A stretch of DNA of 64,000 nt, taken from assembly GCA_963812945.1 (NCBI GenBank), contig CAWEXD010000010.1, positions 496,001 through 560,000 on the forward strand, read 5' to 3'. The notes beneath the pieces are model-generated. The model worked only from the letters and a program-made list of their open reading frames with translations, was not told where the DNA came from and searched no databases. The stretch comes from DASRDR01 sp963812945 [NCBI: uncultured Candidatus Rokubacteria bacterium] (GTDB lineage: Bacteria; Methylomirabilota; Methylomirabilia; Rokubacteriales). This document shows, piece by piece, positions 27,803 through 42,931 of the stretch. The position numbers were made by a program, and so were the translations under genes. Position 1 is the first letter of the stretch; the number at the start of each line of letters is the position of its first letter.

Positions 27803-27847
27803 TGGTGAGCCGTGAAGGAATCGCACCTTCAACCTACTGATCAAGAG
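27803..27847 (-). repeat. R1 repeat copy 5: 3' half of tRNA-Lys (degenerate)
   Basis: The sequence matches the 3' half of the intact tRNA-Lys at 42856-42931 from CCA through the anticodon loop, with mismatches in the T-loop and in the anticodon-loop region. The 5' half is absent. It is the leftmost and most diverged copy of the array, consistent with the oldest insertion. Confidence 0.8.
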
Positions 27848-28058
27848 TCCCCGCAGGGGTCCACGCATCGCCACTCACCAGCCCCCATCCGCCCGTCAGG
27901 TCGAGAACACATCTTGAGCGTTCCTTCTCGTACGTCGTCGTACATCCAGGTGAGTTGGAACCATCCTGGAACCAGAATCACGGCCTCGGGCCGGACGGGA
28001 AGCGCCAACGTCCTCCTGGGCCGTGCGCGAGTGGTCCTCACCCCTGTCCACGGTCCAG

Positions 28059-29222
28059 CTACTTGCGCTTGAAGGCGGGCATCACCTGCACCGAGAAGCG
28101 CTCGAGCTGCTCCAAGATCACGGCCTGGGGCGTGCCCACGGGCTGGCCGACGTTGACGACCTCGAGGCCCGGATACTTGTGCTGGAGCTCCATCAACCGC
28201 TCGGTGATCTCCTCAGGGGGGCCGATCAGCCACGTGCCGGCCTTGATCGCGTGACGCAAGGTGGGCAGGTTGGCCTGACGCCAGCGTTTCGGGTCCGCCA
28301 CCGCCTCGATCTGCTCGGGCGTGAGGCCGGGCACGAAGCCGAGGGGCGCGAACATCTTGATGTTCTCCTCGAAGAACGGCGTGGCCTCCTTGATGCCCTG
28401 CTCGACGCTGTCGGCGATATGGAACGAGAAGCCGATGCAGAGGCCCGCGCCCAGCGCCCCCTCTCGCCCCGCCCGGGCCCGCGCCTCGCGGAAGGCCTGG
28501 ACGACCTTCTCCTGCGCCCCACCCGGCGCCGCGCCCCCGCCGATGATCCCTCGGATGTCGTGTTTGGCCATGAAGTCCAGGGCCCGCGGGCTCGCGCTGA
28601 CCACCGGCTGCCAGCACTCGACGGGCAGCGTCTTCGGGCGCGGCACCAGCGTGATCTCCCGAAGCTCGTAGCCCCGGTAGGGCACCGGGGGCGGGATGGT
28701 GTAGTGCTTGCCCTGATGCGTGAAGGCGCGCTCGTTGAACGACTTGAAGATCAGCTCCACCTGCTCCTCGAACAGCTCGCGGTTGGCGTCCTGGTCGAGC
28801 ATGGGCGCCCCGAACGTCTCCACCTCGCGGGTGTGGTAGCCACGGCCGACACCGAACACGACCCGACCGTTGGTCAGCCAGTCGACGGTGGCGTAATCCT
28901 CGGCCAGCCGGAGCGGATGCCACATCGGTGCGATGTTGAAGCCACAGCCGATCTTGATGGTGCGGGTGATGTGGCAGAGGTGAAGGGCCAGCATCAAAAT
29001 GTTGGGGATGCACTCGTAGCCCTCCCGCTGGAAGTGGTGCTCGGCCAGCCAGAAGGTGTCATAGCCGGTCCGATCCATCAGTCGGGCGATGGCCTCGCTC
29101 TTGGGAAACACCGTGGTCAGGTCGTCGTCGGAGAGCCAGCGATCGTTAACGGGCGTTCCGTCAAACCCCTCGTTGTCCAGATCGACGTGTCCCGCGAATA
29201 GGCTTCCGAAACTGGTGATCAT
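28059..29222 (-). CDS. LLM-class flavin-dependent oxidoreductase
   Basis: The 387-residue protein is a luciferase-like monooxygenase TIM barrel. Motifs include DTFWLAEHHFQREGYECIPN near residue 55, GCGFNIAPMWHPLRLAEDYA and LTNGRVVFGVGRGYHTREVE. Members use reduced FMN or F420 to oxidise small organic substrates, and which cofactor applies here cannot be told. ATG 29222 has a GGGAGG site. It is the only gene of the module between R1 copies 5 and 4. Confidence 0.88.
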   Translation of the reverse strand: MITSFGSLFAGHVDLDNEGFDGTPVNDRWLSDDDLTTVFPKSEAIARLMDRTGYDTFWLAEHHFQREGYECIPNILMLALHLCHITRTIKIGCGFNIAPMWHPLRLAEDYATVDWLTNGRVVFGVGRGYHTREVETFGAPMLDQDANRELFEEQVELIFKSFNERAFTHQGKHYTIPPPVPYRGYELREITLVPRPKTLPVECWQPVVSASPRALDFMAKHDIRGIIGGGAAPGGAQEKVVQAFREARARAGREGALGAGLCIGFSFHIADSVEQGIKEATPFFEENIKMFAPLGFVPGLTPEQIEAVADPKRWRQANLPTLRHAIKAGTWLIGPPEEITERLMELQHKYPGLEVVNVGQPVGTPQAVILEQLERFSVQVMPAFKRK

Positions 29223-29320
29223 GCTCGAAGTCCTCCCTGAAGACCGCGGCTCCGGCTGAAGGAAATCATATCAATCAGCCTGAGGTGAAGCACGTGTGGT
29301 CTCGACAGGCCGTAAAGTAC

Positions 29321-29350
29321 AGGGGCGAGGGGTTCAACGCCCCGCGCCCC
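29321..29350 (-). repeat. GC-rich hairpin next to R1 copy 4
   Basis: GGGGCGAGGGG and CCCCGCGCCCC form an 11-base stem with one mismatch around a short loop, immediately left of the tRNA-derived repeat. Similar hairpins occupy the same position at the other copies. It could terminate transcription of the former tRNA or act as an arm of the recombination site. Confidence 0.55.
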
Positions 29351-29353
29351 GAA

Positions 29354-29398
29354 TGGTGAGCCGTGAAGGAATCGAACCTTCAACCTACTGATTAAGAG
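29354..29398 (-). repeat. R1 repeat copy 4: 3' half of tRNA-Lys (45 bp, exact)
   Basis: These 45 bases are identical to the 3' part of the intact tRNA-Lys gene, from the encoded CCA to the anticodon loop. The 5' half is replaced by unrelated sequence. The copy is a likely attachment-site scar. Confidence 0.9.
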
Positions 29399-29571
29399 TT
29401 CCAACCGGCCACGACGCACCGCACGCGATCCACAGCTATCAGCACGTCAGATCAGGAAAGGATCATGAGGCGACCTGCTCATGCTGGGGAACACCGGTCG
29501 TTCCGATTCCGGATTGGCGCGGGCGCGTCGAGCGACCGCAAACGAAGTGTGAGAGGCTCTCCAGCGTGTCA

Positions 29572-30330
29572 ATGGTCATCCTCAAGGTCGTCCTCGCACC
29601 GTGCCTGATTCTCCTGGCGAGTCTGGCCGGCCGGCGCTGGGGGCCCGGCGTCGGGGGCTGGGTGACGGGGCTTCCCCTCACCTCAGGGCCGGTGTCGCTC
29701 CTGCTCGCGCTCGAACACGGGCCCGACTTCGCGACACGGGCTGCGCTGGGCACGCTGTTCGGAGTGGTGTCCCACACGGCCTTCTGCGTCGCGTACAGCC
29801 GCGTCGCCGGCCCAGTCAACTGGCCGGCGAGCGTGGCGGCCGGCAGCGGCGCGTTCCTCGCATCCACCCTCGTGTTCAAGGACGTCACCGTGCCGGTCCC
29901 GGTCGCCTTCGTCTTCCTCTGCCTGGTCCTCGCAGCGGGGGTGGTGGCGATGCCTCGCCCGTCGCGGCGCGCGCGGACGAGTCGGTCACCGCGCGGTGAA
30001 CTCGGCCTCCGGATGGTCGTCGCCGCGACGATGGTCTTCGTCCTCACGACGGCAGCGAGCACGCTCGGGCCGGCGCTGAGCGGGATCCTCTCGCCATTCC
30101 CGATCTTCACAACCATCCTCACCGTATTTGCCCACCGGGCGGACGGCGCCCCGGGTGCGGCCGGCACGCTGAGGGGAGCGGTCATCGGCTCCTTCGCCTT
30201 CGCGATGTTCTTTCTGGTCGTCGGTGGGCTGCTTGGCCAGCTGGGAATCGCGTGGACATACCTGCTGGCGTCGCTCTCGGCGCTTGGCATCCATGGATTG
30301 GCACTCGTCCTCGTTCGCCGTCTCGCCTGA
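29572..30330 (+). CDS. Multi-span membrane protein of unknown function
   Basis: The 252-residue protein consists of about eight hydrophobic helices with few polar loops. The opening RRWGPGVGGWVTGLPLTSGP is notable for Gly/Pro turns between helices, and a second half (ATMVFVLTTAASTLGPALSG) resembles the first, suggesting an internal duplication as in small transporters. I recognise no characterised family. A GTG at 29566 is an alternative start. It begins about 170 bases right of R1 copy 4. Confidence 0.6.
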   Translation: MVILKVVLAPCLILLASLAGRRWGPGVGGWVTGLPLTSGPVSLLLALEHGPDFATRAALGTLFGVVSHTAFCVAYSRVAGPVNWPASVAAGSGAFLASTLVFKDVTVPVPVAFVFLCLVLAAGVVAMPRPSRRARTSRSPRGELGLRMVVAATMVFVLTTAASTLGPALSGILSPFPIFTTILTVFAHRADGAPGAAGTLRGAVIGSFAFAMFFLVVGGLLGQLGIAWTYLLASLSALGIHGLALVLVRRLA

Positions 30331-30826
30331 GAGCGTGCGGCGTCCCGGCCCGGGTCTTGGGTCGGTCGATCCAAACCCCCGCGGGACGCGGCTGGGCTCG
30401 TCGCTAGCTCGGGGGACGAGTCGCAATCTCTCGCCGGAAAACGAATCGGCCGCGTGATGGATGTTCGCCTGCGTGCGGTGGAGTTCGGTGGAGTTTGGCA
30501 CCGGTGCGTCACCGAGCCCCATGGGACGCCGTTGTCCCCGTCTGTCCGCTGCCTGTTCGCCGGCTCGAGGGAGCCTCCGGGGCCCCTGCGCCGATCCCGG
30601 GGGCGCCATTGCCGGGCCGCTCCGCCGCGTCCTAGACTGCGGCCACCGAGCGCTCGAGGCCGGTGGCGGGAGACAAGAAACATGCTTTGGAGCGCCTACG
30701 TTCTGGACCCGGAAGCGAGGGGCCCGCGTCGAACCCCCGGAACGACACCACGACGCACCTCCTGACGGGGATGCGCCCCGCTACCACAGCCAGGCCGGGA
30801 CAAGCGCGCGAGGCGGTCGTCCCCTC
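30331..30826. other. Intergenic stretch with an R2 copy
   Basis: No gene is evident in these about 495 bases. The only recognisable element is the partial R2 repeat at 30455-30520. The rest is GC-rich with overlapping open frames of no recognisable character. Confidence 0.4.
30455..30520. repeat. R2 repeat, partial copy
   Basis: This 66-base segment contains GGAGTTTGGCACCGGTGCGT and is nearly identical to 33233-33299, differing mainly in the middle. Its left part, present in the other R2 copies, is missing. It lies inside a module rather than beside a tRNA fragment. Confidence 0.8.
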
Positions 30827-31798
30827 TCACTCCGTCCGCAGCGCCCGTACGCTGTACGTCGACACCGGCCGCGCGAACCCCTTCAGCGTCAGGTCCCCCA
30901 CCGGCTCGGCGTCCACGAGATCCTCCACGAGCCCCAGCAGGCGCCGCGAGACGAGGATCTGTCCCGGCCCCGCCTCGCCGCACAGCCGCGCCGCGAGATT
31001 CGTCACGGTGCCGATCGCCCCGTAGTCCCACCGCCCCTCGAAGCCGATCGCCCCAATCGTGGCATAGCCGTGGGCGATCCCCACCCCGAAGTCGAGCGCG
31101 AAGCCCCGCTTGCGCCAGACCGCCACCAGGCCCACCACGCGCTCGCGCATCTCGATGGCCATGCGCATCGCGCGCTCGTGGGGATTGGGGACCGGCAGGG
31201 GGTCGTTGAAGAAGATCATCATGCCGTCGCCGGTGAAGCGCTCGAGCGTGCCCTCGTGGGCCAGGATGATCTCGCCCATGGCCGCGTGGTACTCGCGCAG
31301 CACGCCCATGACCTCCTCGGGCTCGGCGGTCTCGGCGAAGGCGGTGAAGCCGCGCAGGTCAAGGAACACCACCGTGACCTCGCGCCGGTGGCTCTTGAGC
31401 GGATCCTCGGCGTCGCCGGCCAGAATGAGCTCGGAGAGCTGGGGCGAGAAAAAGCGCTTGAGCCGGCCCAGCCGCTCGAGCTGGGTCACTTGGTCCGCCA
31501 CCCGCTGTTCGAGCGTGCGGTTCAGCTCGGCCAGCTCGTCCCGGGTGGTCTGGAGCTCGCGAGTGCGCTCGACGACGCGCTGCTCGGTCTCGGCGAGCGC
31601 CTTCCGGAGGTCGTCGGTCGTCCGGGAAAGGAGGCGAAACTGGACCTCCATCTCCTTCCGCGTCCGGTCGGCGCTGAAGGCGGTCCGCTTGCTGGAGCGT
31701 TCGATCCGGCTCAAGAGGTCGAGGGCTTGCTGCCGCGCGGCCGGGTCGACGACGAGTTGCTCGATGGCGGCCCTCAGATGGGCAACGTCCTCCACCAC
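30827..31798 (-). CDS. Class III adenylate/guanylate cyclase with coiled coil
   Basis: The 323-residue protein has a long coiled coil (about residues 45-115), then a class III cyclase domain. The first metal Asp lies in VVFLDLRGFTAFAE, the second in FTGDGMMIFFNDP, and GFEGRWDYGAIGTVTNLAAR holds the transition-state Asn/Arg region. It probably makes cAMP, but purine specificity cannot be fixed by eye. It lacks membrane segments. GTG 31798 is three bases after the FIST-domain gene stop, so the FIST protein may sense a signal that controls this enzyme. Confidence 0.85.
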   Translation of the reverse strand: MVEDVAHLRAAIEQLVVDPAARQQALDLLSRIERSSKRTAFSADRTRKEMEVQFRLLSRTTDDLRKALAETEQRVVERTRELQTTRDELAELNRTLEQRVADQVTQLERLGRLKRFFSPQLSELILAGDAEDPLKSHRREVTVVFLDLRGFTAFAETAEPEEVMGVLREYHAAMGEIILAHEGTLERFTGDGMMIFFNDPLPVPNPHERAMRMAIEMRERVVGLVAVWRKRGFALDFGVGIAHGYATIGAIGFEGRWDYGAIGTVTNLAARLCGEAGPGQILVSRRLLGLVEDLVDAEPVGDLTLKGFARPVSTYSVRALRTE

Positions 31799-31801
31799 CG
31801 C

Positions 31802-32926
31802 TCAGTTCTCTTTCAGGGCCACCAGCACGCACGTCTCGTTGTGGAACTCGGTGGCACCCGCAGCGTTCCTGCCGAACTCGCCGTAGGTGTAGAACCCGAC
31901 CATTGGCACATTCCACAGCCGCTGCATCGGGCCCACCTCGTCCTCGGCCAGGGGGCCGAGGGCCATATGCCGCGCCTTGCAGGAGAAGAGCATGAGAGCG
32001 TCGGCGTCGGGAACGCGGCGGTGGAGCGTCCTGACTTCACTCAAGGCCTGATCCGTGATAGCGGCGCCGGGCGAGCACGAGAAGCGCACCTTCGCGCCTT
32101 CGGGTACCGTCCCCGCAAACACGAGCGATCGCGTCTCCGGGAGAGCGATCAGGGCGGCGCGCAACACAGAGTAACCATCACGTTGGATCTGCAGTGGGTA
32201 CTCCGCGATGATCAGGTCGGTGTCGCTGGTGAGACCCAGATAGTCCTTGTACACGTCGAGGGCCGGGACGCCGTCGATGGTGTGCACGACGTTGCCTTCG
32301 GCCTTGGTCACGGTCTTCTCGGCGCCGACGGCCACCCACCCGCTGCTCGCGACGCCGTCCAGCGTCACGCGGTCTCCGTCGAAGGCCAGGACGAGAATGC
32401 CCTCGCTGCTCAGCTTGCGGCCGGTGAACACGTAGGTCCGCGTCAACTTCCAGTCGTCCCCGGCGAATCCTCCGAAGATCGGCGCGTCGGGACCGGCCTC
32501 GCTCTGAAGTCCGCGAACAATCCCCTCGCCGTCGATCGTCAGGCCCGCGGCCAGGACCACCATCGGTCCTCGGTCGAAGGTCGCCCTCGCCCAGCGCCCG
32601 GCCGCCACGCCCAGGTCGTGAGAGGTGCGTCCGTCCTGCTCGACCAAGCGGATGCCGTAGGCGGAGCGGTCAAGATCGAGCAGGAGCGCAACGATGCAGC
32701 CTTCTCGGATCGGCTCGCTCGTGGCGCCCACGACGATCTCGCCCGACGAGCTGGCGCCGAACACGTCGATGCCGGCGTCCCGGAAGACCCGCGCGACATC
32801 GGTCAGCTCGTGGGCGACCGACGCGAAGACTATTGCGAGAGTAGGCGAGAATCCGCCGGCTCTCAGCGCCTGGAGCTGGCCCTCGATCGCGGCGACGCTG
32901 TCAGCGGCTAGCGGTTGAGCCTTCAT
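31802..32926 (-). CDS. FIST-domain (FIST_N/FIST_C) sensor protein
   Basis: The 374-residue soluble protein shows a FIST_N domain (residues about 30-200; VFGASSSGEIVVGATSEPI and PIFGGFAGDDWKLTRTYVFT). A FIST_C domain follows, ending near GPMQRLWNVPMVGFYTYGEF and HNETCVLVAL. FIST domains are predicted to bind amino-acid-like ligands and usually lie beside signalling outputs. Here the downstream gene is a class III cyclase, 3 bases away, making a two-gene sensory operon. Confidence 0.88.
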   Translation of the reverse strand: MKAQPLAADSVAAIEGQLQALRAGGFSPTLAIVFASVAHELTDVARVFRDAGIDVFGASSSGEIVVGATSEPIREGCIVALLLDLDRSAYGIRLVEQDGRTSHDLGVAAGRWARATFDRGPMVVLAAGLTIDGEGIVRGLQSEAGPDAPIFGGFAGDDWKLTRTYVFTGRKLSSEGILVLAFDGDRVTLDGVASSGWVAVGAEKTVTKAEGNVVHTIDGVPALDVYKDYLGLTSDTDLIIAEYPLQIQRDGYSVLRAALIALPETRSLVFAGTVPEGAKVRFSCSPGAAITDQALSEVRTLHRRVPDADALMLFSCKARHMALGPLAEDEVGPMQRLWNVPMVGFYTYGEFGRNAAGATEFHNETCVLVALKEN

Positions 32927-33088
32927 GCCGTCCCCCGGCCTCCGGCGAGGCCTGCGCTTCTCACGCCTGGTGGCTGACCATCATAGCGCAAGGCCGTCGC
33001 CATGGGCTGACAGGCCTCATGATCCCGCAGACTCGCTGAAACAGCCGTCGGACGCGGTCGTCGGGTTGCACTGATGCGGCAGAAACAC

Positions 33089-33116
33089 GAATCGGGGGGC
33101 GGCGGCGCCCCCCGAT
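33089..33116 (-). repeat. GC-rich hairpin next to R1 copy 3
   Basis: A near-perfect inverted repeat, ATCGGGGGGCG with CGCCCCCCGAT, sits four bases left of the tRNA-derived repeat. GCAGAAACACG just outside it matches the flank of the intact tRNA copy. Confidence 0.6.
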
Positions 33117-33120
33117 CGAG

Positions 33121-33162
33121 TGGTGAGCCGTGAAGGAATCGAACCTTCAACCTACTGATTAA
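33121..33162 (-). repeat. R1 repeat copy 3: 3' half of tRNA-Lys
   Basis: The copy is identical to the tRNA-Lys 3' half for 42 bases and then diverges at the anticodon loop, where R2 begins directly. Confidence 0.9.
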
Positions 33163-33299
33163 TAGGTGGTTCCGGGACCAAATTCCTACGCACTCAGGAG
33201 AGCTAAGACGACGAATCTTCTGCGCGGCAGCCTGATGGATGTTCGCCGGCGTGTGGTGGAGTTCGGTGGAGTTTGGCACCGGTGCGTCACCGAGCCCCC
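33163..33299. repeat. R2 repeat, full copy
   Basis: The about 137-base segment begins directly at the end of R1 copy 3 and includes CACTCAGGAGAGCTAAGACG, CTTCTGCGCGGCAGCCTGAT and GGAGTTTGGCACCGGTGCGT. It matches 38579-38708 and 35033-35154 along most of its length. With R1 and the hairpin it forms one composite repeat unit. Confidence 0.85.
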
Positions 33300-33363
33300 A
33301 CGAGCGGCTTACGCGGCCGTGGCTCCCAGGCAGTACCATGGCGGCGATCCCGGAGGTGGAGTC

Positions 33364-34212
33364 ATGGCGATGGATCGGCCGACGTCGAGCGAGGCGGGTG
33401 GCGCGTGGGCGTCCGGCGCCGTGGCAAGCGGTTGGCTGCGGGGAGCGGCGGCCCGTGGCCAGGCTCTGGGCCCCGTGACCGAGCTGATGCTCGATGTGGC
33501 CGGCGTGACGGTCGGCAGCCGCGTACTCGACCTGGGAGCAGGTACGGGCGACCAGACGCTGCTGGCGGCACAGCGCGTCGCGCCGGGCGGCGCGGTGCTG
33601 GCGACCGACATCTCCGCGTCCATGCTTGGCCTCATCCGCGAGGTGGCGCGCGCGGCCGGCCTCCTCAACGTCGAGACGCGAGTGATGGATGCTCAGCGCC
33701 TGGAGCTCCCGTCTGGCTCGTTCGACGCGGCGATTGCCCGCTTCAGCCTGCAGTTCGTCCCGGATGTCCAGCGGGCCTTGACCGAAGTCCGGCGTGTGCT
33801 CAGGCCCGGCGGCCGGTTCGCGGCGGTGGTCTTCTCCGCCATCGAGAGGAATCCGTATCGCGCCGGTCCGCAGGCCATCGCCAGTCGGCTGGCGGGACGG
33901 CCATTCCCCGAGCCGGGGCCCGGACAGTGGGCGCTCAACGAGCCTTCAACGCTGGCCGACGCGTTTCAGCGAGCCGGCTTTCGAGAGGTGGAGGCTCGGC
34001 CGGTGCCCTTCGTGTACCGCTTCCCCTCGCTGGCGGACGCCCTGCGCAACCTGGAGGAAGCACAGCCCCTACTGGCAAAGCTGCTGGATGAGCTGGGCGA
34101 CGCCGACCGGGCCGCCGCCTGGGCCGAGATCGAAAGGTCGCTCCGGCGATTCGTGGGAGAAGACGGGTTCGCAGGGCCGAGCGAAGCCCTGATCGCCGGC
34201 GGCGTGGCCTGA
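33364..34212 (+). CDS. SAM-dependent methyltransferase (UbiE/type 11)
   Basis: The 282-residue protein contains SRVLDLGAGTGDQTLLAAQR (motif I, near residue 57), then AVLATDISASMLGLIREVAR and LPSGSFDAAIARFSLQFVPD, standard features of Methyltransf_11/UbiE-like enzymes. The substrate is unknown. ATG 33364 has a GGAGG site. It is transcribed away from the tRNA scar at 33121 and lies in the module bounded by R1 copies 3 and 2. Confidence 0.88.
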   Translation: MAMDRPTSSEAGGAWASGAVASGWLRGAAARGQALGPVTELMLDVAGVTVGSRVLDLGAGTGDQTLLAAQRVAPGGAVLATDISASMLGLIREVARAAGLLNVETRVMDAQRLELPSGSFDAAIARFSLQFVPDVQRALTEVRRVLRPGGRFAAVVFSAIERNPYRAGPQAIASRLAGRPFPEPGPGQWALNEPSTLADAFQRAGFREVEARPVPFVYRFPSLADALRNLEEAQPLLAKLLDELGDADRAAAWAEIERSLRRFVGEDGFAGPSEALIAGGVA

Positions 34213-34333
34213 CAGGCCGCGCCCGCCCGCGACGCGGTCGTCTGCCAGGAGGCGCACGAGGCTGCGCGCGAGCGCGCCGTCCCGGCGAGGGTCGTCGAGG
34301 CCGGGTGGTGACCGGCCGGCTCAGTGCTTGCCG

Positions 34334-34660
34334 CTACTGCGCCGCGCCTTGGAGCAGGATCCGCTTCCCGGCCGGGAGTCCCAGATGCGTCGGCGGCCCG
34401 GCTGGCACGATCCGTCCCGGCGGGTGGCCCAGCACGAGTACGCGCATGCCGCCGCGCTGGGCAACGTGGACGACCTGGGCCTGGGAGGCGCGCCCGAGGG
34501 TGGCGAGGCCGTACGCGCGGGGCGCGAAGCCGAACACGACGTAGAAGGGCTGGGCGTGGAGCCGCCCGTCGGTGTCCAGCACGGTTCCCGTGCGCAGGCG
34601 CGGATCGTCGCCCTGAACAAGTTTTCGCTTGAAGAGATCGATGAGCTTCTGAAACGGCAC
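34334..34660 (-). CDS. Hypothetical protein (108 aa)
   Basis: From GTG 34660 the frame gives FQKLIDLFKRKLVQGDDPRL, then LHAQPFYVVFGFAPRAYGLA and ends GKRILLQGAAQ. The composition looks protein-like, with an amphipathic N-terminal helix, but no family is recognised. No strong ribosome-binding site is seen. The frame stays open upstream, so the start is uncertain. It lies between the methyltransferase and the BNR-repeat fragment. Confidence 0.4.
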   Translation of the reverse strand: MPFQKLIDLFKRKLVQGDDPRLRTGTVLDTDGRLHAQPFYVVFGFAPRAYGLATLGRASQAQVVHVAQRGGMRVLVLGHPPGRIVPAGPPTHLGLPAGKRILLQGAAQ

Positions 34661-34786
34661 GGGGGTGAACGCCAGCGCGGGTCTGGGCAAGCCTGCGGCG
34701 AGGGTCGTCGCCCGGCTGGCGGCCGGGCTCGGGCTCCTGCCACAGTTGGCGCGATCCGGAGATCCAGCCCAGGAGAGGACACGCCC

Positions 34787-35029
34787 ATGACCAGCTCGCA
34801 CGTCTACGTCGGTGCCGCGGCGATCGGTTCCAAGGCGGTCGGCGGCGTTTTCCGTCAGGCGACGGGTGACGACCGCTGGCAGCAGATGACCAAGGGATTG
34901 CCCGAGGTGACCCACGTCCAGGCGATCACCGTGCACCCCGCGAACCAGGACGTGGTCTACCTCGGCACCCGCAGCGGCCCGTACCGCAGCACGGACCGCG
35001 GCGAGCGCTGAGAGCGGCTGGACTTCCCC
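34787..35029 (+). pseudogene. Truncated VPS10/BNR-repeat (exo-sialidase-like) gene
   Basis: ATG 34787 with AGGAGAGG upstream opens a beta-propeller type protein (SSHVYVGAAAIGSKAVGGVF, then VHPANQDVVYLGTRSGPYRS). At codon 75 a TGA appears where a Trp codon is expected (STDRGER-stop-ERLDFPQDPN). The similarity continues past it for about ten residues, up to about 35030, where the R2 repeat begins. The normal protein has several more repeats, so both a nonsense change and a 3' truncation have occurred. Confidence 0.65.
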
Positions 35030-35032
35030 CAG

Positions 35033-35154
35033 GACCCGAACTCCTACGCACGCAGGAGAGCTAAGGCCACGAATCTTCTGCGCGGCAGCCTGATGGATGT
35101 TCGCCTGCGTGCGCTGCAGTTCGGTGGAGGTTGGCACTGGCCTGTCACCGAGAT
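35033..35154. repeat. R2 repeat without adjacent tRNA fragment
   Basis: The segment shares CGAACTCCTACGCACGCAGG, CTTCTGCGCGGCAGCCTGAT and the GGAGTTTGGCA-like core with the copies at 33163 and 38579. The R1 part is missing and the left edge abuts the truncated BNR gene. Confidence 0.85.
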
Positions 35155-35415
35155 TCTGCTGCGCGCTGTGCCGGCCCGCGCCGGATCCGGGGCGCGGTGA
35201 CCGAGCCCCACGCCGTGCGGCGCCTGCTCGGCTCGCTCGGGCTGGCGGCCCAGCCGCCGCCGCACCGTTCCGTCACCGCCCCGTGACCCGCCATCGATCC
35301 CAGCGTCCACCCCAGCCGCCGCCGTCCCAGTCCGCCCGCCGACCCGTGAGAGCCGGCTCTCACCAACGTGAGCTTGTCCTCGATCAGGTGGAAGGGGCTG
35401 ATCTTCATGGACGCC

Positions 35416-35988
35416 TTACGTGCGGAACGCGGACTCAAGCTGGTCGATCATCTCCGCCTCTGCGCTCGAGATCTTGCCCACTCCGAGCACACCGCCGCTG
35501 GCGCTGGCCACCGCCCGGGAACGCTCGACGAGACCCGCGCGGAGCGCCTCGACCTGCTCGGGGGTCAAATTCTCGTTGATGCCCTGGACCATGTGGATCC
35601 ATGCTGTGAGGAGTCTCGGCTCGGGCCTGCGCTCCAGCCAGCTCTTGAGAAGGTCGTAGCTCACCGAACCCGGGGTGACGCCGGACTTCGCGGCGCGGTC
35701 GAGAATGGCCTGTTCCTCCTTCGCGTCGATCGCGCCGTCGGCCCAGGCCACCTCGGCAAGCGGCACGATGGACAAGGCGACGAGGGTCTCGGCGTGGACG
35801 CCGAGCTGGATGAGCCGGTCCAGGATCGCGGTGTTCTTGATGCCGGAGATCCGGGAGAGCTCCTCGCGGGTGGCCTCCTTCGCCTTGAGCTCGCGCAGCT
35901 TCTCAATGAGTCGCGCGTCCTCCTTGCGGAAGAACTCGTCCTCGAGGGTCTTGCCTCGCTCGCCCAGGATGTGCTGGTTATCGGCCAT
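35416..35988 (-). CDS. TerB-like/unknown helical cytoplasmic protein
   Basis: ATG 35988 follows AAGGAGG. The 190-residue, mostly helical protein begins GKTLEDEFFRKEDARLIEKL. It contains a helix-turn-helix-like stretch (ATREELSRISGIKNTAILDR) and a TerB-like segment (AEVAWADGAIDAKEEQAILD), which in TerB proteins carries acidic metal-binding residues. TerB domains occur in tellurite-resistance and stress systems. The assignment rests on that one segment. It is the rightmost gene of the R1 copy 3 to copy 2 module. Confidence 0.65.
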   Translation of the reverse strand: MADNQHILGERGKTLEDEFFRKEDARLIEKLRELKAKEATREELSRISGIKNTAILDRLIQLGVHAETLVALSIVPLAEVAWADGAIDAKEEQAILDRAAKSGVTPGSVSYDLLKSWLERRPEPRLLTAWIHMVQGINENLTPEQVEALRAGLVERSRAVASASGGVLGVGKISSAEAEMIDQLESAFRT

Positions 35989-36138
35989 GACTGCCTCCTT
36001 TACGCGTCTGTCAGCGCATGATACCAGCCTCAGAAACCGAGACATTCCCGCAGCGCGTCCAGCACGCCTCCGGGTTGCCCTCGTGCAGGGTGTGCACCGC
36101 GCGCGGGATCTCGACGAACCGGTGGGACTGGAAAGACG

Positions 36139-36165
36139 AATCAGGGGGCGTTGCCGCCCCCGATC
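36139..36165 (-). repeat. GC-rich hairpin next to R1 copy 2
   Basis: ATCAGGGGGCG and CGCCCCCGAT-type arms flank a 3-base loop. The hairpin stands in the same position relative to R1 as at 33089, and the bases between hairpin and R1 (CGAG) are identical. Confidence 0.6.
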
Positions 36166-36168
36166 GAG

Positions 36169-36212
36169 TGGTGAGCCGTGGAGGAATCGAACCTTCAACT
36201 ACTGATTGAGAG
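36169..36212 (-). repeat. R1 repeat copy 2: 3' half of tRNA-Lys (degenerate)
   Basis: The copy matches the tRNA-Lys 3' half with one substitution in the T-stem, one deleted base in the anticodon stem and one change in the anticodon loop. It cannot be part of a functional tRNA. No R2 follows on its right. Confidence 0.8.
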
Positions 36213-36522
36213 TTCTCCCCGAACCGAACTGCCCGAATCCAGGAGCACCTATCCGCCTGAGATGATTCACCTCTCCGAGCAGCGATGGGCCGCGTCGATG
36301 CTCCTGGTATGGGATGGTGTGGGAGCAGGATGGTAGCAGACTCGCGGCTTTTGCTCATCGCCGGGTCGAGTCCAGAGACTGCGGGATAAACGGAGTGGCG
36401 CCGCACTCGGTGTTACAACTCGCCAGATGGAGAATCTGGCGCGTCGGCTCCCAGAATCGGCTGGGCGACGCCGCGTCGAGGGATGCCCACGACCCCGGCG
36501 TTCTGGTCCCGGGTTCCCGACA
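36213..36522. other. Stretch without recognisable genes
   Basis: About 310 bases lie between R1 copy 2 and the SBP fragment. A short plus-strand frame at 36314 reads WEQDGSRLAAF, which is reminiscent of the recombinase-like tails at 38462 and 42788. Nothing else is recognisable. Confidence 0.35.
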
Positions 36523-36621
36523 TCACGTGGCCGACCCAATATACCTTCCCAGCCGGCTGCGCCGCCGTAATGGTGCGACGAGGACGCTGACCGCGCCGGC
36601 GACGAATGCGCGCCGGTCCAC
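36523..36621 (-). pseudogene. N-terminal fragment of an ABC substrate-binding protein gene
   Basis: A GTG at 36621 opens VDRRAFVAGAVSVLVAPL, the usual Tat/Sec-like signal start of PF04392-type binding proteins. After about 18 residues the sequence loses similarity and stops at codon 33. The GTG shares a base with the TAG ending the tail fragment at 36621-36660. Confidence 0.5.
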
Positions 36622-36660
36622 TATTGAATCACCTCATCCGCCCGCGCCAGCACCGACGGG
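36621..36660 (-). pseudogene. C-terminal tail of an ABC substrate-binding protein
   Basis: The minus strand encodes PSVLARADEVIQ and a TAG. This is nearly the same ending as the larger fragment at 37122-37673 (PPAVLARADEVIQ). The two tails form imperfect direct repeats of about 44 bp that bracket the cupin gene. Confidence 0.55.
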
Positions 36661-36672
36661 CGAGCCTGAGGG

Positions 36673-37059
36673 TCAATCGGTCGCCTTCGGCAACCCTACG
36701 GCGAACACGATGCAGTCTTCCCCGCTCGTGATTCTGGTTGAATGCCCCGTACCGGTGGTGTCTTCGAGGACAAGAACGCTCCCCGTGGGAAACCGTCGGA
36801 CCGTGCCGTCACCTGCTGTGATCTGGAACTCACCTCGCACTGTGATGAAGATCTGCCGGCGCGGCGCCGGGTGCGGGGCGTCGCCCCGCCAGGCAGGCGG
36901 CCCTCCGACCCAGAAACTGCCCTCAGTGGGGAGGAACGGCGCAGAGTGTAGCGGCTCTGCGGGCGGAACCGCGAAGCCGGGGGCAAGTTCGGCATCCAGA
37001 TCCTCGAAGCGAGAGACGCCACCGTCGTCCGTGAACAATCTCGTGTAGTAGGCACGCAT
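36673..37059 (-). CDS. Cupin-fold protein
   Basis: The 128-residue protein begins MRAYYTRLFTDDGGVSRFED. The cupin core includes FITVRGEFQITAGDGTVRRF and then PTGSVLVLEDTTGTGHSTRI, with a His in the second cupin motif. Cupins of this length are often small metal-dependent enzymes or binding proteins. The substrate is unknown. It is enclosed by two copies of the 3' end of an ABC substrate-binding gene, so it seems to have been inserted into or trapped by a duplication there. Confidence 0.7.
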   Translation of the reverse strand: MRAYYTRLFTDDGGVSRFEDLDAELAPGFAVPPAEPLHSAPFLPTEGSFWVGGPPAWRGDAPHPAPRRQIFITVRGEFQITAGDGTVRRFPTGSVLVLEDTTGTGHSTRITSGEDCIVFAVGLPKATD

Positions 37060-37121
37060 TCTAACCACCTCGCGGCTCGCTGAGCTTCCCTGACAGAGCC
37101 GAGAAACTTCCGGCCGTTCCA

Positions 37122-37673
37122 CTACTGGATCACTTCATCCGCCCGCGCGAGCACCGCCGGTGGGATCGTGAGGCCGAGCGCCTTCGCGGTCTTGAGATTG
37201 ATCACAAACTCGTACTCCGTGGGTTGCTCGACCGGAATGTCTCCAGGCTTCGTGCCCCTGAGGATCTTGTCGACGAACTTCGCCGCATTCCGGTACAGCT
37301 GAGTCTGGATGGGTCCAAAGCTGAGAAGCCCCCCGGCCTCCACGGCCTCCCGAAAGAAGTGCATCGTGGGGAGGCGGTGCTTCATCGCCAGTTCGGCGAG
37401 GCGGGCTCGCTGATTGAAGGCGAGCGGATCGCCATACACATGGAGCACATCCGCGCGCCCCCGGACCGCATCTTCGAACGCGCGCTCCAGTTCGGAGACG
37501 TCTCGCGCCTCGACGAGTTGGAGCGTCACCCCAAGGGTACGTGCCGCTGCCTCTGACTGGGGGAGGGTCCATGCGTGCATGCGGTTGGTCGGATTCATGA
37601 GGATCCCGATGCGTAAGGCTCGGGGCACGGCCTCCTTGATGACTTGCAGCTGCTTCGCCGCGAACGCCTCCCA
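37122..37673 (-). pseudogene. N-terminally truncated ABC substrate-binding protein (PF04392)
   Basis: The retained C-terminal about 183 residues read AFAAKQLQVIKEAVPRALRI, GILMNPTN, FFREAVEAGGLLSFGPI and a final IPPAVLARADEVIQ. This matches the second half of the tri-type ABC_sub_bind family (about 325 residues). The signal peptide and first lobe are missing. At about 37673 the sequence switches to a GNAT gene on the opposite strand, so a deletion joined the two. Confidence 0.75.
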
Positions 37674-38209
37674 TACCCACCTGCTGCCGGACCCCGGCGA
37701 GCGGGAGCGCCTGGTGCTGCCGTTCATGACGGCCTGGACGCGGTACGGCCTCCTCTTTGGCGAGGTGTACGTGACCGCCGGGCCGGTCGAGGCGAGCGCC
37801 ATCTGGCTGCCACCGAGCGCCGCGATCGGGCGGACCGAGGAGCGCACAGACCGGACGGGGCTGACCGAGGTCGTCAGCGCGCTCAGCGACGGGGCGCGAG
37901 CGCGCTACCACGCGATGCTCCAGCACCAGCGTCGCATCCGCGAGGCCGCTCCGTCCGTCCCGCACTGGCATCTCCCCTTTATCGGCGTGGACCCCGCGCG
38001 GCAGGGCCTCGGCCTCGGACCTGCTGTTGCGAGCGGGGCTCTCGCGCATCGACCAGGACGGGGTCGAGTGCCGGCTGTTCACCGAGACGCCGCGGAACGT
38101 GCCGCTCTACCAGCGGTACGGCTTCGAGATCGCCGTCGAGGGAGACGTCCCCGACGAGGGCCCGCGACTCTGGTTCATGAGGCGAAGACCCCACCCCATC
38201 ACGCCATAG
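37673..38209 (+). pseudogene. Broken GNAT acetyltransferase gene
   Basis: The frame enters at LLPDPGERERLVLPFMTAW, without the first 50 or so residues of the family. It continues through FGEVYVTAGPVEASAIWLPP to the acetyl-CoA loop IGVDPARQGLG. There, near 38020, a frameshift moves the ending to another frame: LLLRAGLSRIDQDGVECRLF, then NVPLYQRYGFEIAVEGDVPD. It is both 5'-truncated and frameshifted. Confidence 0.65.
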
Positions 38210-38461
38210 TCGTCACGATCGACGACCTCCGGACGGCGGCGCCGCCTGTGTCAGTTCCGTGCCAGAACCATCGAGCGGGGAGGGGGACCATCGGTCTCGA
38301 CGCCCATCGCCGAGCGCCCCGAAGTCTCGATGATTGCGACGATCATGACCGATGGGGACCCGTGGTCTCCCCCCGGGCGCCCAACTCAAAATCTGATGCG
38401 CTTCGTCTCGCCAGAGGGAGGGTCGACGCCTCGGAGCTTCAGCGAACCTTCGAATTCCTAG

Positions 38462-38527
38462 CAGGACGGTAGCAAAGTGGTAGCAGAGACAGGATCAGGG
38501 GGTGCCGGTTGTCCGGCAACCCCCTGA
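38462..38527 (+). pseudogene. Recombinase-like C-terminal tail beside R1 copy 1
   Basis: The frame QDGSKVVAETGSGGAGCPAT ends at a TGA seven bases left of the tRNA fragment. It is almost the same as the tail at 42788-42850. C-termini of tRNA-associated integrases often read like this. The rest of the gene is absent. The final third of the tail is also an inverted repeat. Confidence 0.45.
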
Positions 38528-38530
38528 TTT
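38492..38530 (-). repeat. Strong hairpin next to R1 copy 1
   Basis: ATCAGGGGGTGCCGG and CCGGCAACCCCCTGAT form a long stem around TTGT with one mismatch. It has the same position and outer bases as the hairpin beside the intact tRNA-Lys. Confidence 0.75.
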
Positions 38531-38533
38531 GAA

Positions 38534-38578
38534 TGGTGAGCCGTGAAGGAATCGAACCTTCAACCTACTGATTAAGAG
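38534..38578 (-). repeat. R1 repeat copy 1: 3' half of tRNA-Lys (45 bp, exact)
   Basis: This 45-base segment is identical to the 3' half of the intact tRNA-Lys gene 4.3 kb to its right, from CCA to the anticodon loop. Its right neighbour is R2 rather than the tRNA 5' half. Confidence 0.92.
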
Positions 38579-38708
38579 GTGGTTCTGTGACCGAACTCCT
38601 ACGCACGCAGACGATCTAAGCGTACGTATTTCCTGCGAAGCCGCCTGACCGATGTTCGCCTGCGTGTGGTGGAGTTCGGTGGAGTTTGGCACTGCCCTGT
38701 CACCGAAG
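38579..38708. repeat. R2 repeat, full copy beside R1 copy 1
   Basis: The about 130-base segment starts directly at the end of R1 and shares ACTCCTACGCACGCAG and TGGAGTTCGGTGGAGTTTGG with the copies at 33163 and 35033. The order hairpin-R1-R2 is the same as at 33089-33299. Confidence 0.85.
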
Positions 38709-38938
38709 ACTCTGCTGTGGCCCGCCGGGCCGCCCGTGACCTGGCCCCAAGTTCGGCGCCGGTTGACCCGCAGGCTTCGGACCGGCGGCAGGCGGCGCCC
38801 ACTCCGCCTCCCACCCGGTAGCGCCCAGACGACCTCCACTCCCAGCGGCGAGTTGGAGCGGCCAACATTGCGGGTGGCGAACGGAAACGCTGGCCGGCCG
38901 ACCTTGAAGCTTCCCGGGTGCTCCCCTACAGTCAGAGT

Positions 38939-39874
38939 ATGGCGACCTCGAGGCGTGACACGAACGGGACCCTCCCGGAGTACGTGCTCCCGCGGTCCGT
39001 CCGGAAGGACCCCACCGCGCGGGTCCTCGAGATGGACCGTGTCCTGTTCGTCGAATACCGGGCCTCTCACCCGGCGCCCCCCTGCACGGCGCAGGTTACC
39101 GAGAACATGCTCATGGTGGTGCTGGAGGGCCAGAAGCGCATCGAGGCGGGCGCGACCGTGTCCGTGCTCGACCCTGACCACGCGATCTTCCTGCGGCGGG
39201 GCCACTACGGCATGGCCGCCACGCTCTCCCAGGAGACCGGCGCCTATCGGTGCGCGATCTTCTTCTTCGACGATGCCTTCCTCGGCGAGTTCGCACACCA
39301 GCACAGCCTGCTCCCCGACGGCCGCATGGCCGCCGACCCGGCGTCCCCGCTGGCGCTGCCCGTGCGCGTGTCGCCGCTACTCCGCGCGAGCATCGAGTCG
39401 GTGCTGCCCTATTTCACCCACGACGGCGCGAACCGCCCGCGCATCCTTCGGCTGAAGCTCCAGGAGATCCTGCTGAACCTCCTCGACGCCGACCCGGAGG
39501 CCGGCCTCGCGCGCTTTCTCCTGCGTATCGTCTCCGACAAGCGGAGCCTCCTCGGGCCCCTCGTCGAGGCACACCTCGGCCGGCCCGTCACGATCGAGAC
39601 GCTGGCGCGCACGGCCGGCATGAGCGTCTCGGCGTTCAAGCGCGAGTTTCGGGGCGCGTTCGCCGCGTCACCCCGGGAATGGATGACCGAGCGCCGGCTC
39701 GACCGGGCGCGGCATCTGCTGGCGCGCGCCGACCGGAACGTGACCGATGTCAGCCTCGAGGTCGGCTTCGAGAGCGTCTCGCACTTCATCCATCGCTTTC
39801 GCCGCCGTTTCGCCGTCACTCCCAAGCAGTTCCAGATGAGCCAATCCCGACAGAATCCGGGCCGCGCCCGATAG
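38939..39874 (+). CDS. AraC-family transcriptional regulator (ExsA-like)
   Basis: The 311-residue protein has an N-terminal sensor part (about residues 1-190) and a C-terminal double helix-turn-helix. The latter shows VTIETLARTAGMSVSAFKRE, then DVSLEVGFESVSHFIHRFRR and FAVTPKQF, as in ExsA/AraC proteins. An in-frame GTG at 38918 is an alternative start; neither has a strong ribosome-binding site. It is followed after 68 bases by the iorA-like gene on the same strand, which it may control. Confidence 0.85.
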   Translation: MATSRRDTNGTLPEYVLPRSVRKDPTARVLEMDRVLFVEYRASHPAPPCTAQVTENMLMVVLEGQKRIEAGATVSVLDPDHAIFLRRGHYGMAATLSQETGAYRCAIFFFDDAFLGEFAHQHSLLPDGRMAADPASPLALPVRVSPLLRASIESVLPYFTHDGANRPRILRLKLQEILLNLLDADPEAGLARFLLRIVSDKRSLLGPLVEAHLGRPVTIETLARTAGMSVSAFKREFRGAFAASPREWMTERRLDRARHLLARADRNVTDVSLEVGFESVSHFIHRFRRRFAVTPKQFQMSQSRQNPGRAR

Positions 39875-39942
39875 ACGGCGCCGTCAACGGGGGTGGAGGA
39901 TGGCCTCACACTCCCCGGCAACCCGATTCTGAGGAGGCCCGC

Positions 39943-40416
39943 ATGATCGACGTGGCCGTCAACGGCAAGCGCCACCGAGTCGACGTGGAACCCGACACGC
40001 CCCTCCTGTGGGTGATCCGAGACGCCATCGGACTACCCGGCACGAAGTTCGGCTGTGGCATGGCGCTGTGCGGCGCGTGCACCGTGCATGTGGACGGCCA
40101 GGCCATCCGCTCCTGCATCACGCCGATCTCCGCGGCCCAAGGCAAGACGATCATCACCATCGAGGCCGCCACCGACGGCAGCGACCGTGTCGGCGCAGCC
40201 GTACACGCCGCCTGGGTGAAGCACGACGTGGCCCAATGCGGCTACTGCCAGAGCGGCCAGATCATGAGCGCGACCGCCTTCCTCAAATCGCTGCCTCGCG
40301 GCAAGCCACCCACCGCCGCCGAGATCGACTCGGCCATGGCCGGCAACATCTGCCGCTGCGGCACCTATGCCCGCATCCGCGCCGCGGTGGCCGATGCCGC
40401 CCGCACCCTCGCCTGA
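39943..40416 (+). CDS. iorA: [2Fe-2S] subunit of a molybdenum hydroxylase (IorA-like)
   Basis: ATG 39943 follows GAGGAGG. The 157-residue protein holds both iron-sulfur domains: CGMALCGACTVHVDGQAIRS (plant ferredoxin-like) and QCGYCQSGQ with NICRCGTY (helical C-terminal domain). QSGQ instead of TPGM is typical of IorA (isoquinoline 1-oxidoreductase alpha). It passes electrons from the molybdenum subunit encoded 10 bases downstream. No FAD subunit gene is present, as expected for the Ior type. Confidence 0.88.
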   Translation: MIDVAVNGKRHRVDVEPDTPLLWVIRDAIGLPGTKFGCGMALCGACTVHVDGQAIRSCITPISAAQGKTIITIEAATDGSDRVGAAVHAAWVKHDVAQCGYCQSGQIMSATAFLKSLPRGKPPTAAEIDSAMAGNICRCGTYARIRAAVADAARTLA

Positions 40417-40426
40417 AGGAGCCGCC

Positions 40427-42673
40427 ATGTTGCCCAACATCGACCCCCGCGACCTGCCGCGCGCTCTGCAGCACCTCCTGGCCCGAGGCCCAGCCGACGA
40501 AGCCGCCACGCTGCCGCGCCGCAGCTTCCTGAAGCTGGCCGGTGCCGGCGGCTTGGCGCTCGGCGCCTTTCCTCACCTGGCCACGGCACAGGCCACCGGT
40601 GGCGGCCAGGCAGCCGGCGCCCTCAAGCCGACCGAACAGCCGTCGGCCTTTGTGCAGATTGCCCCCAACGGCGAGGTCACGGTGACCATCAACCGGCTGG
40701 AATTCGGCCAAGGCGTGCAGACCGCGCTGCCGATGATCCTGGCCGAGGAGCTCGACGCCGACTGGAACCTGGTGCGCAGCCGGAACGGCTCGAACGACGC
40801 CGCCTACGCCGACCCGCTCTTCGGCATTCACCTCACCGGCGGTTCTCATTCGATCAAGAACAGCTTCACTCAGTATCGCGAGCTCGGCGCGCGCGCTCGG
40901 GCCATGCTGCTGGGTGCCGCCGCAGCCCGCTGGAACGTGGACGTGGCCACCCTGCGCACGCAGGCCGGCACGGTGCTCGGCCCGGGGGGCCGCAAGCTGG
41001 GTTACGGCGCACTGGCCGAGACCGCCATGGCCCTGCCCGTGCCCGAGAAGGTCGCGCTGAAGGATCCCAAGGCCTTCCGCTTCATCGGCCGTCCCACCAC
41101 GCGCCTGGACGCGCGCGCCAAGAGCAGCGGGCGGCAGGACTTCGGTATCGACGTTCGCCTGCCCGGTCAGCTGACGGCCGTGGTGGCCCGTCCGCCGGTG
41201 TTCGGCGCCCGCCTGGCGGCGGTGGACGATAGTGCGGCGCGCGCCGTCAAGGGCGTGAAGGGCGTGCTGCGCGTGCCGCTGGACCGCGGGGCCGAAGGCG
41301 TGGCCGTGCTCGCCGACGGCTACTGGCCGGCCAAGCAGGGGCGCGACGCGCTGAAGCTGCAGTGGGACACGGCCGCCGTGGAGAAGGTGGACAGCGAACG
41401 GCAACTGGCCCAGTACCGCGAGCTGGCCGGCCGCCCTGGCCCGCGCCAGTTCGACGCCGACATGACGCCGCTGGCCACCGCCCCCCGGCAGCTGGAAGCC
41501 GAGTTCGTGTTCCCCTACCTGGCCCATGCGCCGATGGAGCCGCTCAACTGCACTGTTCAGTTTTCCGAGGGGCACGCTGACCTGTGGGTCGGCACCCAGT
41601 GCCCCGGTCTGGACGGCGCCGCGGCCGCACGCGTGCTGGGTCTCAAGCCCGAGCAGGTGACGGTGCATGTGCCGATGGCGGGCGGCGGCTTTGGCCGGCG
41701 TTTCTCGAGCACGAGCGACTTCGTGGTCGAGGCCTGCGAGATCGCCAAGGCCGCGCGTGCCACCGGTCTGAACGTGCCGGTGCGCACGCTCTGGAGCCGT
41801 GAGGACGACATCAAGGGTGGCTACTACCGCCCGATGCACCTGCACCGCGCGCGCATCGGCTTCGACGAACGCGGCCAGGTGCTGGCCTGGGACCACGTCA
41901 TCGTCGGCCAGTCCGTCACCTCGGGCTCCGTGTTCGAGCAGTTCCAGGTGAAGAACGGCATCGACGCCACCGCCACGGAGGGCATGCGTGATCCCTACCC
42001 GCTGCCCATGCGCCTGACGGTGCACCACCCCAAGCTCAACGTGCCGGTGCTGTGGTGGCGCAGCGTGGGTTCGACCCATACCGCCTTCGTGATGGAGACC
42101 TTGCTCGACGATATTGCGCGCGCCACGAGCCAGGACCCGGTGGCCTACCGGATGCGCTTGTTCGGCGACAAGCACCCGCGGCACCGCGCCGCGCTGCAGC
42201 TGGCGGTGGACAAGAGCGGCTACGGCAAGACGCGCGTGCCGGCCGGCCGCGCCTGGGGCGTGGCGGTGCACGAGTCCTTCGACTCCGTGGTGGGCTACGT
42301 GGTGGAAGCCTCGGTACAGGATGGTCGACCAGTGCTGCACCGGGTCACGGCCGGCGTGCATTGCAACCTGGTGGTGAACCCGCGCACCGTGGAGGCGCAG
42401 GTGCAGGGCGCGGCGCTGATGGGCCTGTCGATGTGCCTGCCTGGCGCGGCCATCACGCTGAAGGATGGGGAGGTGCAGCAGCGCAATTTTGGCGACTTCG
42501 TCGTGCCGCGCATCACCGACATGCCTCAGATCGCGGTGTATGTCGTGCCCAGCGCCGAACCGCCCACCGGCATGGGCGAGCCGGGCCTGCCGCCGCTGGC
42601 CCCCGCCTTCGCCAACGCCATCGCGCGGCTGACCGGCAAGCCGCTGCGCCAGCTGCCCTTCAACCTGGCGTAA
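40427..42673 (+). CDS. iorB: Molybdopterin subunit of an Ior-type aldehyde/N-heterocycle oxidoreductase
   Basis: The 748-residue protein carries a twin-arginine signal (RRSFLKLAGAGGLALGAF), so it is exported folded. It has the duplicated molybdopterin-binding layout of IorB: ITINRLEFGQGVQTALPMI is replaced here by the variant INRLEFGQGVQTALPM, then VPMAGGGFGRRF and TGMGEPGLPPLAPAFANAIA with the catalytic Glu. It oxidises aldehydes or N-heterocycles; the substrate is unknown. Leucine codons are mostly CTG and the style looks beta-proteobacterial, unlike CTC-rich neighbours. It sits between R1 copy 1 and the intact tRNA, so this module is probably the most recent arrival. Confidence 0.88.
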   Translation: MLPNIDPRDLPRALQHLLARGPADEAATLPRRSFLKLAGAGGLALGAFPHLATAQATGGGQAAGALKPTEQPSAFVQIAPNGEVTVTINRLEFGQGVQTALPMILAEELDADWNLVRSRNGSNDAAYADPLFGIHLTGGSHSIKNSFTQYRELGARARAMLLGAAAARWNVDVATLRTQAGTVLGPGGRKLGYGALAETAMALPVPEKVALKDPKAFRFIGRPTTRLDARAKSSGRQDFGIDVRLPGQLTAVVARPPVFGARLAAVDDSAARAVKGVKGVLRVPLDRGAEGVAVLADGYWPAKQGRDALKLQWDTAAVEKVDSERQLAQYRELAGRPGPRQFDADMTPLATAPRQLEAEFVFPYLAHAPMEPLNCTVQFSEGHADLWVGTQCPGLDGAAAARVLGLKPEQVTVHVPMAGGGFGRRFSSTSDFVVEACEIAKAARATGLNVPVRTLWSREDDIKGGYYRPMHLHRARIGFDERGQVLAWDHVIVGQSVTSGSVFEQFQVKNGIDATATEGMRDPYPLPMRLTVHHPKLNVPVLWWRSVGSTHTAFVMETLLDDIARATSQDPVAYRMRLFGDKHPRHRAALQLAVDKSGYGKTRVPAGRAWGVAVHESFDSVVGYVVEASVQDGRPVLHRVTAGVHCNLVVNPRTVEAQVQGAALMGLSMCLPGAAITLKDGEVQQRNFGDFVVPRITDMPQIAVYVVPSAEPPTGMGEPGLPPLAPAFANAIARLTGKPLRQLPFNLA

Positions 42674-42787
42674 GCCGGCACCATGTCGTCCCGGCCACGA
42701 GATCGCGCAGGTAGACCTCGTTCCTCCCGGCGAGATCGGCGCCACCGCACGGCGGGCTCCCGATGGGCAACCAGGCGGCCGTGGACC

Positions 42788-42850
42788 GACGGGACGAGCA
42801 AAGTGGTAGCAGAAACAGGATCGGGGAGCCGGGTGCCCGGAACCCCCTGA
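42788..42850 (+). pseudogene. Recombinase-like C-terminal tail beside the intact tRNA-Lys
   Basis: The frame DGTSKVVAETGSGSRVPGTP ends in TGA six bases from the tRNA 3' end. The tail at 38462-38527 is close to identical in the first half. The last half overlaps a GC-rich inverted repeat (42821-42850). No upstream coding sequence remains. Confidence 0.45.
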
Positions 42851-42855
42851 TTGAG

Positions 42856-42931
42856 TGGTGAGCCGTGAAGGAATCGAACCTTCAACCTACTGATTAAGAG
42901 TCAGTTGCTCTACCAATTGAGCTAACGGCTC
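42856..42931 (-). tRNA. tRNA-Lys (CTT), intact
   Basis: All arms fold: acceptor GAGCCGT/ACGGCTC, D-arm GCTCAATTGGTAGAGC, anticodon loop CTCTTAA with anticodon CTT, T-arm GAAGG-TTCGATT-CCTTC, discriminator A and encoded CCA (42856-42858). It is the last of four tRNA genes on this strand and the parent of the five R1 fragments to its left. Confidence 0.95.

Follow-up and report, generated by a model that had tools for sequence, protein, structure and literature searches.

How did five partial copies of one tRNA-Lys gene come to stand in a row beside the intact gene, with short runs of metabolic genes between them? We approached this question in a 64,000-nucleotide stretch of DNA (the window), in which the array of copies and intervals extends leftward from the intact gene to position 27803.

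The tRNA-Lys gene and its partial copies

The intact tRNA-Lys(CTT) gene was found with ARAGORN at 42856-42931 on the minus strand. It is the target gene (attB) of the array, and its 3' half, at 42856-42900, corresponds to the repeated core. Behind it stand genes for tRNA-Arg, tRNA-Arg and tRNA-His (ARAGORN). Five further copies of the core, all recovered by both blastn and a profile scan, lie on the 3' side of tRNA-Lys and in the orientation of the tRNA (minus strand). The copies at 38534-38578 and 29354-29398 are identical to the tRNA gene at 45 of 45 positions, and the copy at 33121-33165 has 42 identical bases followed by one mismatch. The copy at 36169-36212 has two mismatches and a 1-base gap, and that at 27803-27847 has two mismatches. 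In every fragment, the retained sequence reaches from CCA as far as tRNA position 32, at the anticodon loop. Such a shared edge is described as the scar of a tyrosine integrase, and the 3' half brought by the element restores the tRNA gene (outlined in PMC4383910). A preliminary description of this DNA had reported the positions, orientation and identities of tRNA-Lys and the five fragments, their restriction to the 3' half from CCA to the anticodon loop, and the divergence of the copies at 36169 and 27803. All of this agrees with the results from ARAGORN, blastn and the profile scan.

The five copies are far above background. An nhmmer profile built from the five copies, the intact tRNA and two phage cores (see below), and run against the window with all filters off, gave E values from 1.7e-18 to 1e-15 for the partial copies. 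The best matches after these were the neighboring full tRNA-Arg (0.00037) and tRNA-His (0.37) genes. A chance origin of the five copies is excluded. The same scan found no further diverged fragment above chance to the left of 27803 (the match at 22877 has an E value of about 1). The cores do not become steadily more diverged farther from the tRNA (the copy at 36169 is more diverged than that at 29354), so a simple order of insertion, with the newest element next to the tRNA, is not established. The left flanks of core 38534 and of the intact tRNA are about 91% alike (blastn).

attP-like arms and phages with the same core

Two of the fragments are followed by the same right arm, of about 130 bp (128-133 bp), which also occurs in two places without a core. 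The arm lies after core 33121 (33166-33298, with GGTGGAGTTYGG repeats at +90 and +100) and after core 38534 (38579-38706, with repeats again at +90 and +100), and it resembles a P' arm. Without a core, it is found at 35029-35152, and a portion of it at 30447-30520; we read both of these orphan arms as traces of lost borders. The repeat pair, phased at 10 bp, is exact in three of the four arms. All six exact GGTGGAGTTYGG sites in the 64-kb window fall within three array arms; allowing one mismatch adds four sites in the window, one of which lies in the fourth arm. Scores of one common arm against another were 128, 135 and 166 vs a maximum of 24 in a null set of 400 random draws, less the draws that fell inside 30000-39000. 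The boundaries at 27803, 29354 and 36169 have no common arm and scored 21, 17 and 15, respectively. Weak similarity between two of the arms, 35036-35319 and 38591-38849, continues past the 128-133 bp common to all four. We considered, and rejected, the idea that the common arm represents an integrase gene's 3' end: a minus-strand open frame crosses it, but neither Pfam nor tblastn gave support.

On the other side of each core (to its left, the 3' side of the tRNA) is a G+C-rich hairpin sequence, which is statistically strong at one or two of the six sites. The hairpin beside core 38534 (38482-38533, minus strand) has a z score of -6.15, and none of 200 shuffled sequences was as stable. The hairpin beside core 33121 (33071-33120, minus strand) has a z score of -2.65 (4 of 200 shuffles as stable). 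Scores are weak at 36169 (-1.85), 27803 (-1.83), 29354 (-1.59) and the intact tRNA (-0.62). A plausible role for the hairpin is that of a terminator for the rebuilt tRNA gene.

The same core occurs in phages, beside integrase genes. Among viral contigs, the exact 45-bp core was found in one, IMGVR_UViG_3300042876_000708 (L041), as was its 31-bp inner part. A looser pattern recovered L041 and one more contig, IMGVR_UViG_3300035198_000041 (L051). A tRNA search of six records found the exact core only in the L041 phage record. In L041, the core is about 155 bp from a gene for an integrase with arm-binding, central and catalytic domains. One flank of the core holds tail and endolysin genes, and the opposite flank primase, portal and scaffold genes. 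In L051, the core has two mismatches and lies between genes for a tyrosine integrase and a DnaB-like helicase. (These annotations come from nine proteins of the two contigs, two of which had no match.) Because the same core stands beside a tyrosine-integrase gene in two phage contigs, we take it to be a real attP core. Our results suggest that the host of phage L041 belongs to this lineage. When relatives of the two phage integrases were sought, one scan added two distant contigs (30% and 32% identity) and the other none.

Both phage sites have the organization of an attP. That of L041 (2081-2335) has GCTAGC arm repeats at -71, -60, +111, +121 and +132 and a strong hairpin beside the core (z of -4.55 in the shuffle test). 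That of L051 (4849-5075) has paired ATCCGCAA arm repeats at -79, -68, +84 and +95. At both sites, the repeats are phased at 10-11 bp and lie on both sides of the core, and the layout relative to the core has the polarity seen in the window. The arm repeats of the phage sites differ from those of the modules.

Matching left and right arms would be expected if a module were a complete mobile unit, and we found them in one module. The module at 36169-38533 has its own type of repeat, TGGTAGCAGA, in both arms: GGTAGCAGA at +120 in the right arm (36332-36343) and GGTAGCA at -66 and -55 in the left arm (38468-38490). Its pairing score of 12 was reached by 0.27% of 3000 random pairs. The phage sites, used as positive controls, scored 10 (L041) and 20 (L051), and a score of 10 was reached by 2.5% of random pairs. 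Thus, left and right arms match in one of seven cognate pairings; the other six score 6-7, like random pairs, and three non-cognate pairings reach 10. That pairing is confined to a single module argues against regarding all the intervals as complete mobile units. In the same module, 24 bp of the right arm (36332-36355) resemble the left side of the L041 attP (2009-2032) in reverse orientation (87.5%, E value of 0.11); this likeness is probably due to chance.

Cargo of the intervals and the search for mobility genes

The intervals contain ordinary metabolic genes, two of which are truncated. The leftmost, between cores 27803 and 29354, carries a gene for an LLM-class (luciferase-like) monooxygenase (28059-29222, minus strand). 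Core 29354 is followed by a gene for a putative membrane protein (29572-30330, plus strand), which appears hydrophobic by eye and has no Pfam match and one weak NCBIfam match below the cut-off, and then, past the orphan arm at 30447, by genes for a nucleotide cyclase (30827-31798, minus strand) and a FIST-domain protein (31802-32926, minus strand). Between cores 33121 and 36169 lie a gene for a SAM-dependent methyltransferase (33364-34212, plus strand), a fragment of 74 amino acids that resembles a glycosylhydrolase (34787-35011, plus strand; positions 113-168 of a 246-position profile) and, beyond the orphan arm at 35029, a gene for a protein without a family match (35416-35988, minus strand). 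The module at 36169-38533 encodes an ABC substrate-binding protein without its N-terminal part (37122-37847, minus strand; positions 117-293 of 293 in the profile). A direct repeat of 48 bp (88%; 36612-36659 and 37113-37160, with a spacing of 501 bp) also lies in this module. The interval next to the tRNA encodes an AraC-type regulator (38939-39874) and the 2Fe-2S (39955-40416, coordinates derived from a frame scan) and molybdopterin-binding (40427-42673) subunits of an oxidoreductase, all on the plus strand.

Measured from core to core, four of the five intervals exceed 2 kb, and the interval at 27803-29353 is 1.55 kb. Counting the orphan arms as borders gives seven intervals of 1.1-4.3 kb, three of them longer than 2 kb, and several of the seven hold a single gene or operon. 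We also considered a role for the cargo in defence and rejected it. With 10 proteins as input, the molybdopterin and 2Fe-2S subunits not among them, PADLOC matched only the cyclase (PycC), the methyltransferase region (mad2) and one oxidoreductase model; we take these matches as generic domains, with no system apparent.

No gene for mobility was detected in the array. A six-frame Pfam search of 27800-42801 (E<=0.1) found no integrase, transposase, relaxase or conjugation, or phage structural domain. Each frame was scanned as one sequence of 5000 residues, so short remnants of an integrase could be missed by this search. With tblastn, the best match of three integrase sequences to the window had an E value of 0.19 and lies outside the array, at 27208-27384. 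Hidden integrase remnants in the array were sought by two methods, six-frame Pfam and tblastn, and neither found any. The absence of a complete recombinase from the intervals, stated in the preliminary description, is borne out by these searches.

Nor did base composition set the array apart. Its G+C content is 0.684, that of the DNA to the right of the tRNAs is 0.729, and the DNA to the left has values of 0.684 and 0.692. Because the DNA on the left is about equally low in G+C, composition alone does not mark an island. In a region of more than 6 kb that lies to the left of the array, at 16137-22412 (G+C of about 0.67-0.69), a home-made coding-score scan predicted only three genes, two of them low-scoring; this region may represent a more ancient portion of the island, now decayed.

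Searches for a helper element and for relatives of the locus gave little. Under the exact patterns used, the right-arm and left-arm repeats are absent from the viral contigs, and the right-arm repeats are absent from the 53 loci examined. A stretch of core and arm matched one plasmid over 47 bases, mostly of core. No ICE or IME that could act as a partner was found in the array. A contig scan with a single query, the glycosyltransferase encoded beside the tRNAs, gave 40 loci, none of them a close relative; the best of the 40 by E value had 30% identity over residues 4-386. Neither an empty site nor a related strain turned up in these searches, nor did they reveal an integrase whose arms match.

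Origin of the stack and related systems

Based on these results, we think it fairly probable (roughly 0.6) that the array arose by repeated site-specific accretion at tRNA-Lys, which left CIME-like elements without an integrase. On five or more occasions, an element with an attP of this core would have entered tRNA-Lys. The 3' half that it brought would each time have completed the tRNA gene anew, the previous 3' half would have been displaced outward, and the result would be a tandem stack. Insertion would also set the right arm of the element beside the displaced core and its left side beside the rebuilt tRNA; the polarity of arms predicted for insertion into a tRNA gene is the polarity seen in the window. 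Since no integrase gene is found, the elements may have had an integrase gene of their own and lost it later, or the enzyme may have come from co-resident elements or phages. CIME-like intervals would be left, in which att cores surround one to three cargo genes. Deletions probably removed at least two cores, to judge from the orphan arms, and truncated two genes. The preliminary description had proposed repeated site-specific insertion at one tRNA with an att scar left each time, and the polarity of the scars and the two phage attP cores largely support that proposal.

It is possible, at clearly lower probability, that the modules never had an integrase. They would then be minimal cassettes, each an attP plus a gene or operon, that are added and removed at tRNA-Lys by a tyrosine integrase acting in trans. 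The lack of any integrase trace in the six Pfam frames is consistent with such cassettes, as are the right arm of 128-133 bp that is joined to unrelated cargo in four modules and the seven intervals of 1.1-4.3 kb, several with a single gene or operon. Phages with the same core exist and could supply the integrase. However, the arm repeats of those phages are unlike the repeats of the modules, matched arms occur in only one of seven cognate pairings, and our search for a helper found none. The truncation of genes and the loss of cores suggest decay. In addition, the arm pair 34976/38534 is weakly similar beyond 133 bp; with one pair alike past that point, the case for a fixed junction of arm and cargo is weakened. 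Somewhat more doubtful still is a tRNA-anchored cassette system, in which integrase-free units of one gene or operon would each have their own attP (hairpin, 45-bp core and phased right arm) and a tyrosine integrase in trans, possibly from the phages with the same core, would add and remove them at a single tRNA.

We consider it unlikely that internal deletions reduced a larger island or prophage, or a few of them, to the present array, with cores partly copied by homologous recombination. Such a history would fit the orphan arms, which indicate deleted borders, and the left flanks of core 38534 and the tRNA, which are about 91% alike, as recombination could make them. However, all five cores stop at the very base where the phage attP cores stop, the right flanks are of several types, and the six Pfam frames contain no phage or conjugation gene. 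An artefact of assembly or chance is by far the least probable explanation: the source is a single contig, but the 45-bp matches share one edge and one orientation, the same core is present in two independent phage contigs, and the copies have different flanks, which makes an assembly loop, and with it the assembly error that the preliminary description had named as a refutation, unlikely.

If it arose by accretion at tRNA-Lys, the array records repeated insertion at a single tRNA in compact and readable form, with attP-like arms preserved. If the modules are instead mobilized in trans, they would represent a further route, besides integrons, by which single genes could be stacked at a fixed site that stays undisrupted. 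With the attP sites of L041 and L051, concrete integrases are available for testing the core.

The preliminary description knew of no named system that stacks modules in this way, but several are published: tandem tDNA islands, accretion of CIMEs and additive islands. The tandem tDNA islands of the Islander collection, as outlined in PMC4383910, similarly consist of a tDNA with displaced 3' fragments and use the anticodon-loop sub-site; the collection lists 125 tandems of two or more islands and 4 of three or more. An intact tDNA with a displaced 3' fragment on the correct side and in the correct orientation, as Islander looks for, is present here for five of five fragments. Islander, by the same outline, also looks for an integrase gene in each island, rejects candidates that lack one or are shorter than 2 kb, and accepts islands of 2-200 kb. 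No integrase gene was found in our intervals (six-frame Pfam, E<=0.1, and tblastn), and they would thus be rejected; arrays like the present one would be missed by Islander on these rules.

CIMEs (cis-mobilizable elements), in the account of PMC5704250, have lost their integration and transfer genes, have kept their att sites and are stacked by accretion at the sites of ICEs and IMEs. The array likewise has att sites without genes for integration or transfer, although here no partner ICE or IME was found, and the former presence of such genes, and the loss of the integrase, is our supposition. Additive flexible genomic islands are also similar, with insertions at one tRNA, accessory cargo and cassettes that end in direct repeats of a segment of the target tRNA; the intervals here end in such repeats of part of tRNA-Lys. 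Published accounts describe the additive fGI-2 of 'Ca. Methylopumilus' at tRNA-Lys(ctt), with islands of 330 bp-42 kb and recurring 20-nt tRNA repeats (PMC10872708), small gene cassettes with direct repeats at tRNAs in 'Ca. Actinomarinales' (PMC7771536) and the additive flexible island fGI1 at a tRNA in Alteromonas (PMC4119200). Those islands, as presented there, rest on comparison of many strains, whereas ours is a single contig of a G+C-rich organism that may resemble Rokubacteria, with a 45-bp core and visible attP-like arms.

Other systems share some of these features. In Dehalococcoides, several islands with varied cargo stand in tandem at one RNA gene, ssrA, bounded by its direct repeats, but by the account in PMC3146451 they use serine recombinases and a tmRNA gene, and 16 of 31 keep an integration module, compared with none found here. 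CALIN and integron arrays, as characterized in PMC11389934, also have small gene units between repeated att sites and can lack an integrase in the array; their repeated site is attC, whereas here it is a tRNA half with arms like those of a tyrosine integrase. For integrons themselves, the integrase is missing here, with no tyrosine recombinase in the six Pfam frames of the array. Tycheposons, as defined in PMC10872708, combine a tyrosine recombinase with cargo at a tRNA, and the array is without a recombinase. For a halophilic archaeon, mention is made of a partial tRNA copy that has no integrase in its vicinity (PMC3119063), and tRNA fragments left by integration are expected to be pervasive according to a passage in PMC9897764. 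Among the titles and abstracts that our literature search brought up, none describes the present array. We conclude that the array belongs to a known kind and is notable for its compactness and its preserved arms.
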